Positions 26,588 to 33,630 of a DNA stretch of 64,000 nt are shown here, one piece after another; position 1 is the first letter of the stretch, and the number at the start of each line of letters is the position of its first letter. The notes under the pieces are model-generated. The model did no database searches. It was not told the DNA's origin and saw nothing but the letters and a program-made list of their open reading frames with translations. Made by a program: the position numbers and the translations under genes. Source of the DNA: Microthrixaceae bacterium (lineage in GTDB: Bacteria > Actinomycetota > Acidimicrobiia > Acidimicrobiales > Acidimicrobilacustridaceae). Location: assembly GCA_947449015.1 (NCBI GenBank), contig CANFQA010000001.1:49358-113357 (forward strand), read 5' to 3'.

Positions 26588-26679
26588 GGCCGCAATATTG
26601 CCTCAGGTGGTAGAAAGAGGTCCCGCTGGATAGTTCACGGCGGCCCCAACCCGTACGAATTCGAAGGAGGTGACGCCAC

Positions 26680-26745
26680 ATGCCTACGAGCGAACCCCCA
26701 AGTACCTCGACCGCAGAACGCGCCACCTCGCTTCATCACGGCTGA
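26680..26745 (+). CDS. Candidate 21-aa leader peptide upstream of the MgtE-like gene
   Basis: ATG CCT ACG AGC GAA CCC CCA ... GGC TGA (MPTSEPPSTSTAERATSLHHG) preceded at 6 nt by AAGGAGGTGA (26664-26673), a full-length Shine-Dalgarno. Confidence 0.55.
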   Translation: MPTSEPPSTSTAERATSLHHG

Positions 26746-26870
26746 TCCGCCCCCGTCGCGTCACGAACGCGGCCCGTAGGTCTGCTGCTGCATGGAACGC
26801 AGTGCCGGTCGATTCCGGCCATGAGGTGGTGTGACGTCCCTGTCCGCCCACGTTCGTTGTGGAGACCGTC

Positions 26871-28205
26871 ATGTCCCAGACCCTGTCTGCCCCCCAAGTT
26901 CTGACTCAACGTCGCAAGGAGCGCACCAAGCGCCTTCTCGCGCTCGAAGCCGTCGCCGATTCACTGGTGTCGGTGGCCGGCCTTGCTGGCGCGCCTGTTG
27001 TTCACCGGTCCGGTGTCGAGGTCGGCCGTCTCGTCGATGTTGTGGTCCGTTGGGAAGGCGAGTCCTACCCGCCGCTGACTGGCATTGTGGTCCGTGTTGG
27101 TCGTCGCCTTGCCTGGGTGAAGGCCGACAAGATCGATGATCTCGAACAGCGCCGTGTCGTCCTGCGTTCGGCCAAGTTCGATCTGCGCGACTTCGCTCGT
27201 CGCAACAACGAGGTGAAGTTGGTCGATGACGTCATTGACCATCAGATGGTCGACGTCGATGGCGTGCGTGTCTTCCGTGCCGCTGATCTGTTCCTGGCCC
27301 GTGTCGGCGGCGGACATCGCCTGGTAGGCGCCGATGTCGGGTTCTCCACCTTGTTACGTCGACTCGGCCCAGCTCGGTGGCGAGTCACCCCGCAGCCCGA
27401 TCGCCTTATTGACTGGGCCGCTATTCAGCCGTTCAGCGATCCGGGCGAACCGGTGCGTCTTACCCGCGCCAACAACGAACTCAAGCGTCTTCGCCCCGGC
27501 GAGCTCGCCGATCTTCTCGAAGAACTCGGGCGCTCGCAGCGACAGGAACTGCTCGACGCGCTCGATGCCGAGACTGCCGCTGATGCGCTCGAGGAAATGG
27601 AGAGCGAGGAACTCGCGGCATTGCTGCGTGAGGTTGATCCAGAAAAAGCGGCCTCGTTGGTGGCGTCGATGGAACCCGATGAGGCCGCCGAAGCGCTGCG
27701 CGATCTCGATGATGAAACTCGCGACGAACTGCTCGAGGCCATGCCCCAGGATGTTGCCGACTCACTGGTGGGCCTGCTCGATTACGACGAGGAGACCGCC
27801 GGTGGTGTCATGACCACCTCGATGCTCGTTCTTGAAGGTGATGCCACAGTTGCTGAGGCTCGACTTCGCCTGAAGGAGCGGACTGACAGCAGCGATGTTG
27901 ACGGTGTGCTGGTCGTTGACGGCGATGGCGTGCTGGTCGACAACGTACGCATCATCGAGCTGTTCACCGCTGAGCCCGAACAGAAGATGCACGAACTCAC
28001 TGGTGCACCATGGCCGGTCACTGTTGCCGCCGATGTCATGCTCGAAGAGGTGGTCGAAGCATTCGTTGAAAACCGCGGCTCATCAGTGGTGGTTGTTGAC
28101 GAAGACCAACGCCCCATTGGACGAATTCTGGCCGATGATCTTGTCGACGCTCTGCTGCCCGAAGACGCGCGCAGCCTGCGTGCCTTTACCGGACTGCTCT
28201 CGTAG
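26871..28205 (+). CDS. MgtE N-domain + CBS protein with PRC-barrel-like N-terminus and no membrane channel domain
   Basis: LRPGELADLLEELGRSQRQELLDALDAETAADALEEME... repeats; GVMTTSMLVLEGDATVAEA CBS domains; no TM segments; GGAG 6 nt before ATG 26871. Confidence 0.85.
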   Translation: MSQTLSAPQVLTQRRKERTKRLLALEAVADSLVSVAGLAGAPVVHRSGVEVGRLVDVVVRWEGESYPPLTGIVVRVGRRLAWVKADKIDDLEQRRVVLRSAKFDLRDFARRNNEVKLVDDVIDHQMVDVDGVRVFRAADLFLARVGGGHRLVGADVGFSTLLRRLGPARWRVTPQPDRLIDWAAIQPFSDPGEPVRLTRANNELKRLRPGELADLLEELGRSQRQELLDALDAETAADALEEMESEELAALLREVDPEKAASLVASMEPDEAAEALRDLDDETRDELLEAMPQDVADSLVGLLDYDEETAGGVMTTSMLVLEGDATVAEARLRLKERTDSSDVDGVLVVDGDGVLVDNVRIIELFTAEPEQKMHELTGAPWPVTVAADVMLEEVVEAFVENRGSSVVVVDEDQRPIGRILADDLVDALLPEDARSLRAFTGLLS

Positions 28206-28217
28206 ATCGCTGCTGCC

Positions 28218-29501
28218 ATGACCGATCCGATGCCGACAAGCGGCGATCCGAAACCCCGAGCCAAAGCACGCCGCCGTCCTCGTTGGCTGCTGTGGCTGAT
28301 GGTGCTTGGCCCCGGACTCATTGCTGCCAACGCTGGTAACGATGCCGGTGGCATTGCCACCTACGCGTCGGCGGGCTCACAGTTCGGGTACCGAACCCTG
28401 TTCGTCATGGCATTGGTCACCATTGCGTTAGTGGTCGTGCAGGAAATGTCAGCCCGACTTGGCGCCCATACCGGTGAAGGGCTTATGTCGCTCATTCGTG
28501 AGCAGTTCCCGCTGCGACTCTCGGCGTTCGCCATCATCGCCCTGCTCATCGCCAATCTGGGTCTTGTCGTTTCTGAGTTCGCCGGTATTGGTGCAGCCTT
28601 CGAGCTGTTCGGTGTCTCGCGCTACATCGCTATCCCCATTGGTGCGCTGGCCATCTGGGCAATCGTCGTTCTTGGAAACTACCGCTATGCCGAGCGCGTA
28701 TTTCTCGTGCTCGGTCTCGCGTTCATCACCTATCCCATTGCCGCGGTGCTCGGGAAACCCGATTGGGGAGCGGTGGTGAGCAACACGTTCATTCCCCACA
28801 TGCTGGGCACAAAGGAGTTCCTCTTCCTTGTCGTGGCGCTCATCGGCACCACCATCACGCCCTATATGCAGCTGTACCAAGCGGCTGCTGTGGCTGACCG
28901 CGGCGCGGGCCCCGAGGAGTACCGCATGGTTCGCATCGACACCATCACCGGCGCGATTTTTGCCAACATCATCTCGATGGCCATCATCATCGCCACCGCC
29001 GCAGCAATCGGTGGTAGCGGTGTACTTACCTCGGCCAAGGAAGCCGCGCAGGCGCTTGAGCCAGTGGCCGGGTCCGGCGCCGAGATCCTTTTCGGTGTTG
29101 GTCTTCTGGGAGCCTCGGCGCTTGCGGCCGCTGTCGTCCCCTTGGCTACTTCCTATGCCGTAGCTGAGGCGCTGGGCGTCGAACGCTCGGTCTCGCGCAC
29201 CTTCCGCGAAGCGCCGTTGTTCATGGGGCTGTTCACCGCGTTGGTCGTTATCGGTGCAGGCGTGGCGCTGGTGCCGGGCAACCTCATCAATCTGTTGCTC
29301 AACATGCAGGTGCTCAACGGCATCATCACGCCGATCATCCTCACGTTCATCCTGATTCTCGCCAATCGTCGCGGTGTGCTCGGGGCAGCAGTGAACGGCC
29401 CGAGATTCCGGCGGGTTGCCTTCGTCTGTGTGGTTGTCATCGCGGTGCTGGCGTTCGTGGTGCTCGTGCAGACCGTGGCCGGCTGGTTCGGGATCGGTTA
29501 A
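28218..29501 (+). CDS. NRAMP-related transporter, possibly Mg2+-type
   Basis: GPGLIAANAGNDAGGIATYASAGSQFGY (DPGN replaced by DAGG) and GTTITPYMQLYQ (MPH replaced by TPY). Confidence 0.85.
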   Translation: MTDPMPTSGDPKPRAKARRRPRWLLWLMVLGPGLIAANAGNDAGGIATYASAGSQFGYRTLFVMALVTIALVVVQEMSARLGAHTGEGLMSLIREQFPLRLSAFAIIALLIANLGLVVSEFAGIGAAFELFGVSRYIAIPIGALAIWAIVVLGNYRYAERVFLVLGLAFITYPIAAVLGKPDWGAVVSNTFIPHMLGTKEFLFLVVALIGTTITPYMQLYQAAAVADRGAGPEEYRMVRIDTITGAIFANIISMAIIIATAAAIGGSGVLTSAKEAAQALEPVAGSGAEILFGVGLLGASALAAAVVPLATSYAVAEALGVERSVSRTFREAPLFMGLFTALVVIGAGVALVPGNLINLLLNMQVLNGIITPIILTFILILANRRGVLGAAVNGPRFRRVAFVCVVVIAVLAFVVLVQTVAGWFGIG

Positions 29502-29503
29502 GC

Positions 29504-29869
29504 GTGCACCACTACGTACGCATCTGGGCTGATGAGATGGGGGAGTCCCATTTCGAAGACGTCACTGTCGACATCGCAGTGTCGCCGGCCGAACCTGGAG
29601 TTGCCGAGTTGTGGGTGTCCGATCAGGTCACTGTGGACCGTGTCCATTTCGTCACCGTCCAAGCCATCGATCAAGTTCCCGACTGGCATTGCGCGCCACG
29701 TCGTCAGTTTGTGGTGTTTCTCGACGGCTGGGTGTGCATCACCGTGAGTGACGGGGAATCACGCACACTTCCCGCTGGCAGTGTCGTTCTGGTCGAGGAT
29801 GTAACTGGGCGCGGTCATATCACCGAGCACGAACCCGGCGAGCGACGGGTGCTGTTGTTGCCGCTCTGA
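29504..29869 (+). CDS. Cupin-fold protein
   Basis: RRQFVVFLDGWVCITVSDGESRTLPAGSVVLVEDVTGRGH. Confidence 0.7.
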   Translation: MHHYVRIWADEMGESHFEDVTVDIAVSPAEPGVAELWVSDQVTVDRVHFVTVQAIDQVPDWHCAPRRQFVVFLDGWVCITVSDGESRTLPAGSVVLVEDVTGRGHITEHEPGERRVLLLPL

Positions 29870-29941
29870 TCGACTGAGGTGGCAGGCTGTGGTCCTCGCC
29901 GGGGAATTCCGCCCGCGGCAATTGCCCGAAGGTGCCATTTC

Positions 29942-31501
29942 GTGAATGCCGAACTCATCCAACGCCGACGTTGGCTCATCCTTGCGGTGCTCGCGGCAAG
30001 CGTGTTTCTTGTCGTGGTCGACAACACCATCGTGAATGTGGCGCTTCCCCGTCTCAGCAGCGATCTCGGCGCTTCCACCACGCAACTCCAGTGGATTGTC
30101 GATGCCTACAGCCTGGTGTTCGCCGGTTTGCTTCTTGCCGGCGGTGCTATCGGTGATCGCCTTGGTCGCAAAGGTGTATTGCAGACCGGCCTCGTGATCT
30201 TCGCCGCGATGAGCACCCTTGGCGCCTTCGCGCAGAGCTCCGGGCAGCTCATTGCCGCTCGTGCTGCCATGGGCGTGGGAGCTGCACTTGTGTTTCCTGC
30301 CACGCTCGCCATCCTCACCAATGTGTTCACTGATCCCACCGAACGAGCCAAAGCCATTGGTGTCTGGTCAGCGGTCTCAGGCGCTGCAGTGGCGTTTGGC
30401 CCCATCACGGGTGGGTTTCTGCTGGAGCATTACTGGTGGGGTTCGGTGCTGCTGGTCAATCTGCCGATCGTGGCGGTCGCCCTTCTCGCCGGGGCCATCC
30501 TTGTACCCACATCGCGAGACCCTGAGGTGGGTCGTTTCGATATTCCTGGCATTGTTCTGTCGATCTCGGGTATCGGGCTTCTCGTGTTCACCGTGATCGA
30601 GGGCCCGCATTGGGGCTGGAACTCGCTCACCACCTTCAGCGGATTTGCTGCGTCGCTCGCGCTGATTGCTGGCTTTGTTTGGCGTGAACTACGCACCGAT
30701 CATCCGATGCTTGATGTGCGGGTATTCCGCATTCCTCGCTTCAGCGCAGCGGCAGGTTCCATTGCTGTGGCCTTCTTCGCATTGTTCGGGTTCATCTTCC
30801 TCGCAACTCAGTACTTCCAATTCGTGCGTCACTACACCACGTTGTCGGCCGGTTTACACACCCTGCCGTTCGCCATTTTCGCCGGCATCACCGCTCCCTT
30901 TGCCGCACGTCTCGCTATGCGCTTCGGTCCCCGCCGGGTGATTGGCACCGGACTGTTGTTGATGTGTGTCGGACTGGTGATTGCCAGCACCTTCACATCA
31001 ACCACCTCCTATTTCGGTGTCGTCGTGTGGTCAATGGCACTTATGGCTACGGGTCTTTCGCTGGTGACATCGCCCGCCACTGAAGCTGTCATGAGTTCGT
31101 TGCCCAAGGAGAAGGCCGGCGCTGGCGCGGCGGTCAACGACACCACGCGGGAACTGGGAGGAACGCTTGGCGTTGCCGTTGTTGGCAGCGTGTTCGCTTC
31201 GGCCTATGCACCGAAGATCGGTGACTTCCTCGCCCAGTTCCCCATTCCCGCAGAAGCCGTCAGCGCAGCGCGGGAATCGGTTGCTGCGGCACTCGTGGTC
31301 GTGGGCAGGGCGCCTCAGGACGTGCAGGCCTCCATTTCCGCTGCTGCCTCCTCAGCGTTCATGGATGGCATGTCGGTGGGATGTCTTGTTGCTGCTGGTG
31401 TCTCCCTCGCTGGGGCGATTGTGGCGTTCATCCTGCTGCCGGATCGCAACTCGATCTATGACGATCAGGAACCGATCGCCGCTGAGGGTCGCCATACTTG
31501 A
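29942..31501 (+). CDS. MFS transporter, DHA2-type (14 TM)
   Basis: RRWLILAVLAASVFLVVVDNTIVNVALPRLSSDL; start refined to GTG 29942. Confidence 0.9.
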   Translation: MNAELIQRRRWLILAVLAASVFLVVVDNTIVNVALPRLSSDLGASTTQLQWIVDAYSLVFAGLLLAGGAIGDRLGRKGVLQTGLVIFAAMSTLGAFAQSSGQLIAARAAMGVGAALVFPATLAILTNVFTDPTERAKAIGVWSAVSGAAVAFGPITGGFLLEHYWWGSVLLVNLPIVAVALLAGAILVPTSRDPEVGRFDIPGIVLSISGIGLLVFTVIEGPHWGWNSLTTFSGFAASLALIAGFVWRELRTDHPMLDVRVFRIPRFSAAAGSIAVAFFALFGFIFLATQYFQFVRHYTTLSAGLHTLPFAIFAGITAPFAARLAMRFGPRRVIGTGLLLMCVGLVIASTFTSTTSYFGVVVWSMALMATGLSLVTSPATEAVMSSLPKEKAGAGAAVNDTTRELGGTLGVAVVGSVFASAYAPKIGDFLAQFPIPAEAVSAARESVAAALVVVGRAPQDVQASISAAASSAFMDGMSVGCLVAAGVSLAGAIVAFILLPDRNSIYDDQEPIAAEGRHT

Positions 31502-31504
31502 ACC

Positions 31505-32398
31505 ATGCTCTGGCTCACCGGTGCCACCGGTCAGGAAGTCCGCACCTCTGATGGCACCGTGCTGGGTCAGGTGATTGACCTCAGCGTTCGTCTTTCAACA
31601 TCACGCTCCACACCGTTGGTTTCGCGAGTGCTCGTTGAAGTCCGACGTCGGCAGTGGTCGCTCATCGGTTGGAACCAGGTCGTGGGTTTTGAACATGACG
31701 ATGTCGAGCTCATCAATGGCATCGATCAAGGCGCACTCATGCTGTTCGATCCGAACACGGTGAGTGCAGAGCTCGAACCCGATGAATTGCTGCTGCGCCG
31801 AGATGTGCTTGATACACAGATCGTCGATGTGGTTGGTCATCGACTGGCGCGCGTCGCCGATGTGGCACTCGCTCGCACTGCTCACGGAGAGATGGAGGTT
31901 CTCGCCGTCGAGATCGGATTCGGTCGGGTGCTTGAACGACTGCACCTCAGCGGTTTGATCGGTGGTCGACCAGATGAGTCCATTGCCTGGACGGACCTTC
32001 ACCTCACGTCCGATCGGGGCCACCTTGTGCAATTGGGATCGCCGGCCAGTGCCGTGCATCGGCTGACCAACGGCGATCTCGCTGCTCTGGTGGCGCGTCT
32101 CGATCTTGAGAGCGCCACCGAAGTTCTGGACTCGGCCGGCCCGCAGCGCGCCGCTGGAGCGATCGCCCATGCCGCTACCCCAGTCGGTGAGCGTTTGCTG
32201 CGCGCACTTCCTGAGGATGCACGAGCTGAGGTTTTCGACCATATGTCGCCCGAGCATGCCCATTGGTGGCGTCATCGTGTCCGCCATGAGCGACCACTGC
32301 GCGGTCGACGTTTTTTCCGGGGCGCCGGATGGCATCACCGTCACGGAACTCCCCGGCATGTGAGGTCGGGCGCTTCCATTGCGCCGGGTGATCAATGA
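31505..32398 (+). CDS. PRC-barrel + MgtE-N-like soluble protein
   Basis: GQEVRTSDGTVLGQVIDLSV; MgtE-N-like LTNGDLAALVARLDLESATEVLDSAGPQRAAGA; ATGA overlap with next NRAMP gene. Confidence 0.75.
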   Translation: MLWLTGATGQEVRTSDGTVLGQVIDLSVRLSTSRSTPLVSRVLVEVRRRQWSLIGWNQVVGFEHDDVELINGIDQGALMLFDPNTVSAELEPDELLLRRDVLDTQIVDVVGHRLARVADVALARTAHGEMEVLAVEIGFGRVLERLHLSGLIGGRPDESIAWTDLHLTSDRGHLVQLGSPASAVHRLTNGDLAALVARLDLESATEVLDSAGPQRAAGAIAHAATPVGERLLRALPEDARAEVFDHMSPEHAHWWRHRVRHERPLRGRRFFRGAGWHHRHGTPRHVRSGASIAPGDQ

Positions 32399-33630
32399 AG
32401 GGGACTGCTCGGCGGCGGGTGGCGATCGGCGCACTGTTTGCGGTGGTGGGGCCTGGACTTATCGCCGGACTCTCTGATGATGACCCTGCAGGGATCACGA
32501 CCTATTCGGTGCTTGGTGCGCAGCACGGCTATCAGCTGTTGTGGGTGCTGGCGCTCTCGACCGTGGCGCTCATCTTGTTCCACGGACTTGGTGCCCGCAT
32601 GGGTGTGGTCACCGGTCAGGGCATCATTGGTCTGATCCGTCAGCGCTATGGCGTGAAACTCAGTGGAGCTGCACTCATCGCGCTGGTGCTGGCCAACCTC
32701 GGGACCACCTGTGCCGAGTTCGCCGGCCTGGCTGCCGGGTTCGAGTTGTTCGGCGTGAATCGATATCTGAGCGTGCCGCTGGCCGCGGTTGGCGTCTCGG
32801 TGCTGGTGTTACGTGGGAGCTTCCGTCGGATCGAACACATCTTTGTGCTGCTCGCTGCGGTGTTCGTGGCCTATATCGCCTCCGGTTTGCTCTCGCATCC
32901 CGACTGGGGTGCTGCGGTGCACGGTCTGGTCGTACCGACCATGCCATTCACTCGTGATGCCTTCGTGATCATCACCGCCACAGTCGGCACCACGCTCGCT
33001 CCCTGGGGTCTCGCGTTCATCCAGTCCTATGCGGTGGACAAACAACTTCGTCCCGAGGACCTTCGCTTCGAACGAATTGATGTCATCGCCGGTTCGATCC
33101 TCACTGGTGTCGTCGGGTTCTTTGTGGTCATCGCCTGCGCGGCGACATTGCATCGCACTGGACTCTCCATCGACACCGCGTCTGATGCTGCTCGTGCGCT
33201 CGAACCGCTGGCGGGTGGGGCTGCCGGCACGCTGTTTGGCATCGGCCTCATCGGCGCTGCAGTGCTGGCTGCTTCGATCCTTCCGCTGTCGACTGCCTAT
33301 TCAGTCTGTGAGTACATGGGCGTTGAAGCTGCCCTCAACGATCCCTACGCGGAGGCGAAACCGTTCTACCTGACCTATGGGGCTGTTGTGGTCTTTGCTG
33401 CTGTACTCGTGCTCATTCCCGGCGCACCACTTGTGACGATCCTGGTCGCCACTCAGGTGCTCAACGCAGTGCTACTCATCCCGTTATTGGTGTTCCTGCT
33501 CGGTGTGGCCCGAGATCGTGACCTCATGGGGGAGTGGGTGGCGACTCGACGGGCGGTCGTTGCCTATGCAGTCACCATTGCCGTGGTGAGCGCGTGTGTT
33601 CTCGGATTGCTCGTCACGATGTTGCTCTGA
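32395..33630 (+). CDS. NRAMP-related transporter, possibly Mg2+-type
   Basis: GPGLIAGLSDDDPAGITTYSVLGAQHGY (DPAG) and GTTLAPWGLAF (MPH replaced by APW). Confidence 0.85.
   Translation: MKGTARRRVAIGALFAVVGPGLIAGLSDDDPAGITTYSVLGAQHGYQLLWVLALSTVALILFHGLGARMGVVTGQGIIGLIRQRYGVKLSGAALIALVLANLGTTCAEFAGLAAGFELFGVNRYLSVPLAAVGVSVLVLRGSFRRIEHIFVLLAAVFVAYIASGLLSHPDWGAAVHGLVVPTMPFTRDAFVIITATVGTTLAPWGLAFIQSYAVDKQLRPEDLRFERIDVIAGSILTGVVGFFVVIACAATLHRTGLSIDTASDAARALEPLAGGAAGTLFGIGLIGAAVLAASILPLSTAYSVCEYMGVEAALNDPYAEAKPFYLTYGAVVVFAAVLVLIPGAPLVTILVATQVLNAVLLIPLLVFLLGVARDRDLMGEWVATRRAVVAYAVTIAVVSACVLGLLVTMLL

Follow-up and report, generated by a model that had tools for sequence, protein, structure and literature searches.

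A conserved Glu-Pro-Pro-Ser leader ORF, a candidate Mg2+ sensor, precedes paired MgtE-N and NRMT genes in Acidimicrobiia

How is Mg2+ import controlled where the sensor domain of the MgtE channel occurs without its channel, beside a transporter of the NRAMP fold? The question is raised by a stretch of 64,000 nucleotides from a Microthrixaceae bacterium (contig CANFQA010000001.1, positions 49,358 to 113,357; the whole stretch is termed the window), in which two such gene pairs are found: module A (partner A and transporter A) and module B (partner B and transporter B; Table 1). An initial annotation had taken the modules for a duplication in which the Mg2+ sensor of MgtE was twice re-paired with an NRAMP-related magnesium transporter (NRMT). 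It overlooked a short leader open reading frame (ORF) upstream of module A, which is a new element of the locus. The interest of the locus lies in this ORF, a probable MgtL-like Mg2+ sensor in Acidimicrobiia, on an operon that a riboswitch controls in Streptomyces.

In the genus alignment 5' of partner A, a near-invariant block consists of the Shine-Dalgarno (SD) sequence GGAGGTGA followed by an ATG and an ORF of 21 codons. The peptide encoded in the window starts MPTSEPPST, and other leader peptides are MPASEPPST, MRTQEPPSS, MNSSEPPST, MHTDEPPST and MRTDDPPSQ; since they differ elsewhere, the conserved part is the [DE]PPS core (EPPS). A scan of genome contigs gave 80 loci with a transporter of the same type (type A), of which 77 were informative and three were ended by a contig edge. 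A short ORF with an SD sequence and an early [DE]PPS was present in 38 of the 77 leaders, compared with a mean of 0.05 in dinucleotide shuffles. When 395 Acidimicrobiia genomes were scanned with a strict form of the pattern, 17 matches were obtained, at most one per genome, and the reversed control gave none. All 17 were located upstream of an NRMT operon, 15 before a type-A partner and two directly before the gene for a third transporter type (type C); in these two loci the transporter gene heads the operon and no partner gene intervenes. In the open-access literature, neither an EPPS leader nor a leader peptide for an NRMT was found described (subscription papers were outside the search). 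Four Acidimicrobiia-like loci (L051, L061, L066 and L074) are on records titled Bifidobacterium breve, and these titles look wrong.

The codons of the core are constrained as well. The first Pro codon is CCY in 37 of 38 leaders and in 19 of the 20 from outside the genus (P = 1.7e-6), which were used for the codon statistics; the second is CCY in only six of these 20, and shows no bias. The Glu codon is GAA in 15 of the 20 (P = 5e-8), while Ser is encoded by AGT in all 38 leaders (20/20 outside the genus), though AGT is rare in these genes. This preference for AGT, CCY and GAA suggests a constraint on codons or nucleotides, beyond what the peptide alone would explain.

Ribosome-based Mg2+ sensing by a leader ORF, which the window leader resembles, is known to date from mgtA and mgtB of enterobacteria. 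In MgtL, the leader of mgtA, ribosomes drop off at EPDP when Mg2+ is low (PMC11282234), and the Pro codons are CC[C/U], dependent on m1G37 made by the Mg2+-requiring TrmD (PMC6335274). MgtQ, the leader of mgtB, uses early acidic codons (PMC8092293). The window leader is likewise a short ORF with a strong SD sequence before a gene that is, by homology, that of a Mg2+ transporter, and it has an acidic-Pro pair within the first eight codons and a CCY Pro codon. However, its motif is EPPS rather than EPDP and no homology is detectable; leaders of its type also have an invariant Ser AGT and occur in Acidimicrobiia before NRMT genes.

An M-box (ykoK) riboswitch, scoring 129-132 bits, occupies the same place upstream of the orthologous operon in Streptomyces (L121, L127 and L128). 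None was found in the 18 EPPS loci checked, and neither an M-box nor any other Rfam structured RNA was found upstream of the module in the window. Thus, the orthologues of one lineage are preceded by a known Mg2+ sensor and those of another by the EPPS leader. A structured RNA or riboswitch in the window was ruled out as a candidate by the lack of an Rfam match and of excess folding. It is a tentative but serious possibility that the EPPS leader ORF is a new class of Mg2+-sensing leader of the Acidimicrobiia, which arose independently of MgtL, takes the place of the M-box on orthologous NRMT operons and is linked to two NRMT clades (A and C).

Both window transporters match Nramp (PF01566) at 283 bits. 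The closest solved structure is in each case EleNRMT (7qia), with matches of 1.5e-98 (A) and 6e-94 (B); the next-ranked matches in the PDB reach only 1e-26 to 1e-31, a gap to the MntH type of at least 60 orders of magnitude. EleNRMT is a characterised Mg2+ transporter that also carries Mn2+, and the NRMT signature is DxxG in transmembrane helix 1 (TM1) and TxxA-T in TM6 (PMC8806188). The signature is present in both transporters, as DAGG and TTIT in A and as DPAG and TTLA in B. The TM6 stretch reads TPY in A and APW in B, and the soft-metal Met is absent. Both proton-relay His residues of TM6b, His and His in MntH, are replaced (by Tyr and Gln in A, by Trp and Ile in B), and the TM3 Glu is retained (SEFAG/AEFAG). 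A third type, with NDAGG/TVAPW, is found elsewhere in the class (type C). A tree of 40 proteins resolves A, B and C as separate, fully supported clades that group with EleNRMT (support 88), with MntH-type proteins outside (100); as two long outgroup branches meet, it gives no firm branching order for the three types and EleNRMT. By sequence, both window transporters are members of the NrmT/NRMT magnesium-transporter family and would carry Mg2+; the initial annotation had read their TM1 and TM6 motifs correctly, and its NRMT assignment agrees with the EleNRMT matches, the signature and the tree. Another Nramp-like type, with DPSG / GTTISPY, lies outside the NRMT clade and has no partner nearby (G021:C9, locus L044; G023:C72, locus L045).

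Partner A matches Pfam MgtE_N at 78.7 bits and CBS at 41.4 bits, both above the cut-off, which bears out the MgtE-N/CBS and NRAMP reading of the first pair. Partner B had been described as PRC/MgtE-N. The PRC part stands, but its MgtE_N score of 23.6 bits is under the cut-off of 25.9, and two N-terminal PRC-like barrels before the MgtE helical domain are common to both partners. A fold search with the model of partner B returned CdpB and the reaction-centre H subunit as PRC-barrel matches. The MgtE pore domain (PF01769) is absent from both partners.

The Mg2+ sites listed for Thermus MgtE (PMC5882242) were mapped onto the partner A alignment. Wherever a row has a residue at the position concerned, E59, D91, D95, D247 and D250 are acidic. 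Of the 223 columns only 11 are acidic throughout, and these include five of the six MgtE sites (P = 6e-7, an optimistic value as the rows are related). The acids kept are those of sites Mg4, Mg6 and Mg7 and half of Mg5. Such invariance across Acidimicrobiia and Streptomyces is striking in a domain that lacks its channel. Partner A resembles the MgtE channel in its MgtE_N and CBS fold and in these acids, whereas it lacks the channel domain and a full plug helix, has PRC barrels in front and carries Arg for D226.

Partner A and transporter A are in the same frame with a single TAG between them, and the read-through translation was modelled as one joined chain with AlphaFold2 (AF2). The prediction had a mean local confidence (pLDDT) of 85, a predicted template modelling score (pTM) of 0.68 and a disordered linker. 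The transporter part matched EleNRMT with a TM-score of 0.93, and the sensor part was within 2.3 A of the Mg2+-bound cytosolic domain of MgtE (2yvy). The model thus supports both predicted folds.

In partner B, the D91 segment, the Asp91/Asp247-type site and the whole CBS part are lost. Since the partner is still full-length in G258, a type-B relative, this loss is secondary; since the CBS part and the site are deleted, an MgtE-style Mg2+ sensor is unlikely in module B. The proposed pairing of a MgtE Mg2+ sensor with an NRMT is supported for A, where the site acids are kept, but not for B. Module B most likely moves a divalent ion, either Mg2+ or Mn2+, and would do so with no feedback of the MgtE type. 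The tail of partner B (32263-32395) is basic and aromatic, with RPLRGRRFxRxxGW, and is predicted to be disordered (pLDDT 31-45); it is possibly a docking tail for the membrane or the transporter. A frameshift as the origin of this basic C-terminus was rejected because relatives keep the tail motif.

Partner and transporter are obligately linked. The expected co-occurrence of channel-less MgtE-N proteins with NRMT was borne out by the 77 informative type-A loci, in all of which the partner is immediately upstream on the same strand. The same holds for 9/9 informative type-B loci. In type C, the partner is linked in 9/10 loci, twice (L168 and L169) adjoining the transporter in the opposite orientation, so that linkage survives loss of the operon structure. 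One further locus with two NRMT types was seen (L100:154-2055), where a complete type-A module is immediately preceded by a type-C-like NRMT. Candidates for partner-transporter gene fusions proved to be overlapping long open frames in high-GC genomes, and no fusion was found.

The partner tree and the transporter tree give the same three clades A, B and C, which indicates that the two genes were inherited as a unit. On these trees, the history is one old pairing that diversified, not two re-pairings, and the window module B is an old paralogue; a recent tandem duplication of the modules was rejected, as transporters A and B are only 38% identical and the tree is against it. Both the pairing of an NRMT with a MgtE-N protein that lacks the channel and the idea of feedback were known before. 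Shin et al. (2014) found a MgtE-N-like gene beside most NrmT genes and proposed cytoplasmic feedback (PMC4072509). The window genes share with NrmT of Clostridium acetobutylicum (CA_C0685) and with EleNRMT the non-MntH clade, DxxG/TxxA-T, the TM3 Glu, the replacement of both His residues and the adjoining MgtE-N-like gene. They differ in having an EPPS leader for the M-box, a CBS-less type B partner and two modules per locus.

We consider module A to be, with fair probability, the Mg2+ import operon of the cell, with two layers of feedback, one on expression and one on activity. In the first, plentiful Mg2+ would let ribosomes complete the EPPS leader ORF, and the operon would be kept at low expression; at low Mg2+, they would stall at the Glu-Pro-Pro codons near the start or leave the message there, as described for MgtL, and the operon would be expressed. 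Two segments of the leader could take part (Table 1): the duplex of arm 2 and arm 3 has a predicted energy of -21.9 kcal/mol, and cognate arm pairs beat swapped pairs (P = 0.011) as well as shuffled arms. In the second layer, the soluble partner would act as a scaffold of PRC barrels, docked on the NRMT from the cytoplasm and bearing the N/CBS sensor of MgtE; once Mg2+ occupies the site between N and CBS, the sensor would close and import would slow. No CorA, MgtE channel or other Nramp was found in the genome (2.38 Mb, 96.9% complete), where MgtA-type pumps were not searched for. The family was covered by 37 genomes, of which 22 have a type-A NRMT and 13 the MgtE channel domain; none has both, a count weakened by relatedness. 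The swap within a single genus, in which G034 has MgtE and G035 has NRMT-A instead, is less weakened in this way. CorA was found in some type-A genomes.

Several observations weigh against this proposal. The whole leader RNA folds no better than shuffles (z = -0.31), a result that leaves the expression switch hypothetical. In about half of the type-A loci, EPPS is absent and no M-box was detected. D226, which belongs to Mg5 in MgtE, is Arg in 76 of the 77 type-A partners, and a joined model with this pTM and a disordered linker is no proof of docking between partner and transporter. NrmT of Acidobacterium capsulatum, which has the same partner type, fully rescued Mn2+ uptake and rescued Mg2+ uptake only at millimolar levels, and co-expression of the partner gave no gain in Mg2+ rescue (PMC4072509).

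The Mn2+ activity of the A. capsulatum protein with its partner raises the alternative that the operon handles Mn2+ or divalent metals broadly, not mainly Mg2+, and that partner and leader answer another signal. EleNRMT carries Mn2+ too, and no canonical MntH was found in the genome. However, the orthologous type-A operons of Streptomyces have a Mg2+-specific M-box, CorA and MgtE channels are missing from the genome, the transporters lack the soft-metal Met, and a ZnuA-like ABC binding protein is present that could serve Mn2+ or Zn2+; overall we regard this alternative as unlikely. That the partner is a metal chaperone, an assembly factor or a membrane anchor rather than a feedback sensor seems slightly easier to entertain, if still rather improbable. 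PRC barrels occur in membrane-associated scaffolds such as the reaction-centre H subunit and CdpB, partner B retains its PRC part while losing the sensor part, and transport in complementation did not need the partner (PMC4072509), whereas the Mg2+-site acids of type A are invariant despite the missing channel.

For the leader, its restriction to sites before NRMT genes in the 395 genomes, including loci without the efflux gene, speaks against a sensor of translation stress or of proline/EF-P status (polyproline stalling). Ribosome stalling at Pro-Pro motifs is general, there are leader ORFs that respond to tRNA-Pro charging or to antibiotics, and a QacA/EmrB-type efflux gene lies 3' of the window operon; but in the conserved core Pro-Pro invariably follows an acidic residue, and the M-box takes the place of the leader in orthologues. 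Such a sensor is improbable here. Less probable again is a nucleotide-level signal, an RNA or DNA motif GAACCYCCNAGT lying in the ORF by chance. Constrained third positions (AGT 38/38, GAA 15/20, CCY 19/20) would suit it, yet the SD sequence and the in-frame start are conserved in the alignment, the start-to-motif distance changes by whole codons and there is no stable fold. The third base of the second Pro codon is also free, and Asp stands for Glu in two loci, as a peptide predicts. A Mg2+ import operon with a Mg2+-responsive leader and a sensing partner is the reading that we prefer for module A.

Table 1. Features of the two modules and the leader region, in window positions
Feature	Position	Strand	Evidence or remark
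Possible promoter of module A, TGGTAGAAA, conserved extended -10-like element	26608..26616	+	genus alignment; putative promoter role
SD sequence of leader ORF, GGAGGTGA	26666..26673	+	invariant in 17 aligned leaders
Leader ORF (uORF), 21 codons, MPTSEPPSTSTAERATSLHHG, candidate Mg2+-sensing leader peptide	26680..26745	+	
Glu-Pro-Pro-Ser core, GAA CCC CCA AGT (consensus GAA CCY CCN AGT)	26692..26703	+	
Arm 2 in leader ORF tail (CACCTC), may pair with own SD or downstream arm	26715..26729	+	moderate evidence
Arm 3, GAGGTGGTGTGA, 37 nt before partner A start	26823..26834	+	
Partner A: two PRC-like barrels, MgtE_N and CBS, without channel domain	26871..28205	+	profile match, fold, alignment
NRMT type A transporter, NDAGG / GTTITPY	28218..29501	+	profile match, structure match, tree
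Small protein between modules, initially called cupin	29504-29869		
QacA/EmrB-type major facilitator superfamily (MFS) efflux gene	29879-31501		
Partner B: two PRC barrels, truncated MgtE_N, no CBS, conserved basic C-terminal tail	31505..32398	+	profile match, fold, alignment
NRMT type B transporter, DDDPAG / GTTLAPW; start overlaps partner B stop (ATGA)	32395..33630	+	profile match, motifs, tree

The coordinates of the four module ORFs given by the initial annotation were confirmed by an ORF check, and its ATG remains the likely start of partner A, with an SD sequence, GTGGAG, at 26859-26864. Its cupin label was dropped, as the small protein between the modules gave no Pfam or NCBIfam family match at E<=1e-3. 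Around module A, the genus has a conserved block of a CopA-type ATPase, YaaA, partner A, transporter A, the small protein and the MFS pump. The MFS efflux gene is kept 3' of module A across the genus. In G000, G010 and G018, module B is an insertion that separates the MFS gene from an FMN-dependent dehydrogenase; in G007, transporter B likewise adjoins the dehydrogenase, but on a separate contig.

If the leader acts as proposed, destabilisation of the ribosome by acidic-proline sequences would serve as a Mg2+ sensor in lineages as distant as enterobacteria and actinobacteria, and a leader-peptide sensor would be interchangeable with a riboswitch on the same operon. The locus also offers a testable answer to the question, raised in 2014, of the MgtE-like fragment that adjoins NrmT. 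Since the Mg2+-site acids are kept in type A and lost in type B, the two modules of this one genome may provide a natural test of the role of the sensor part.

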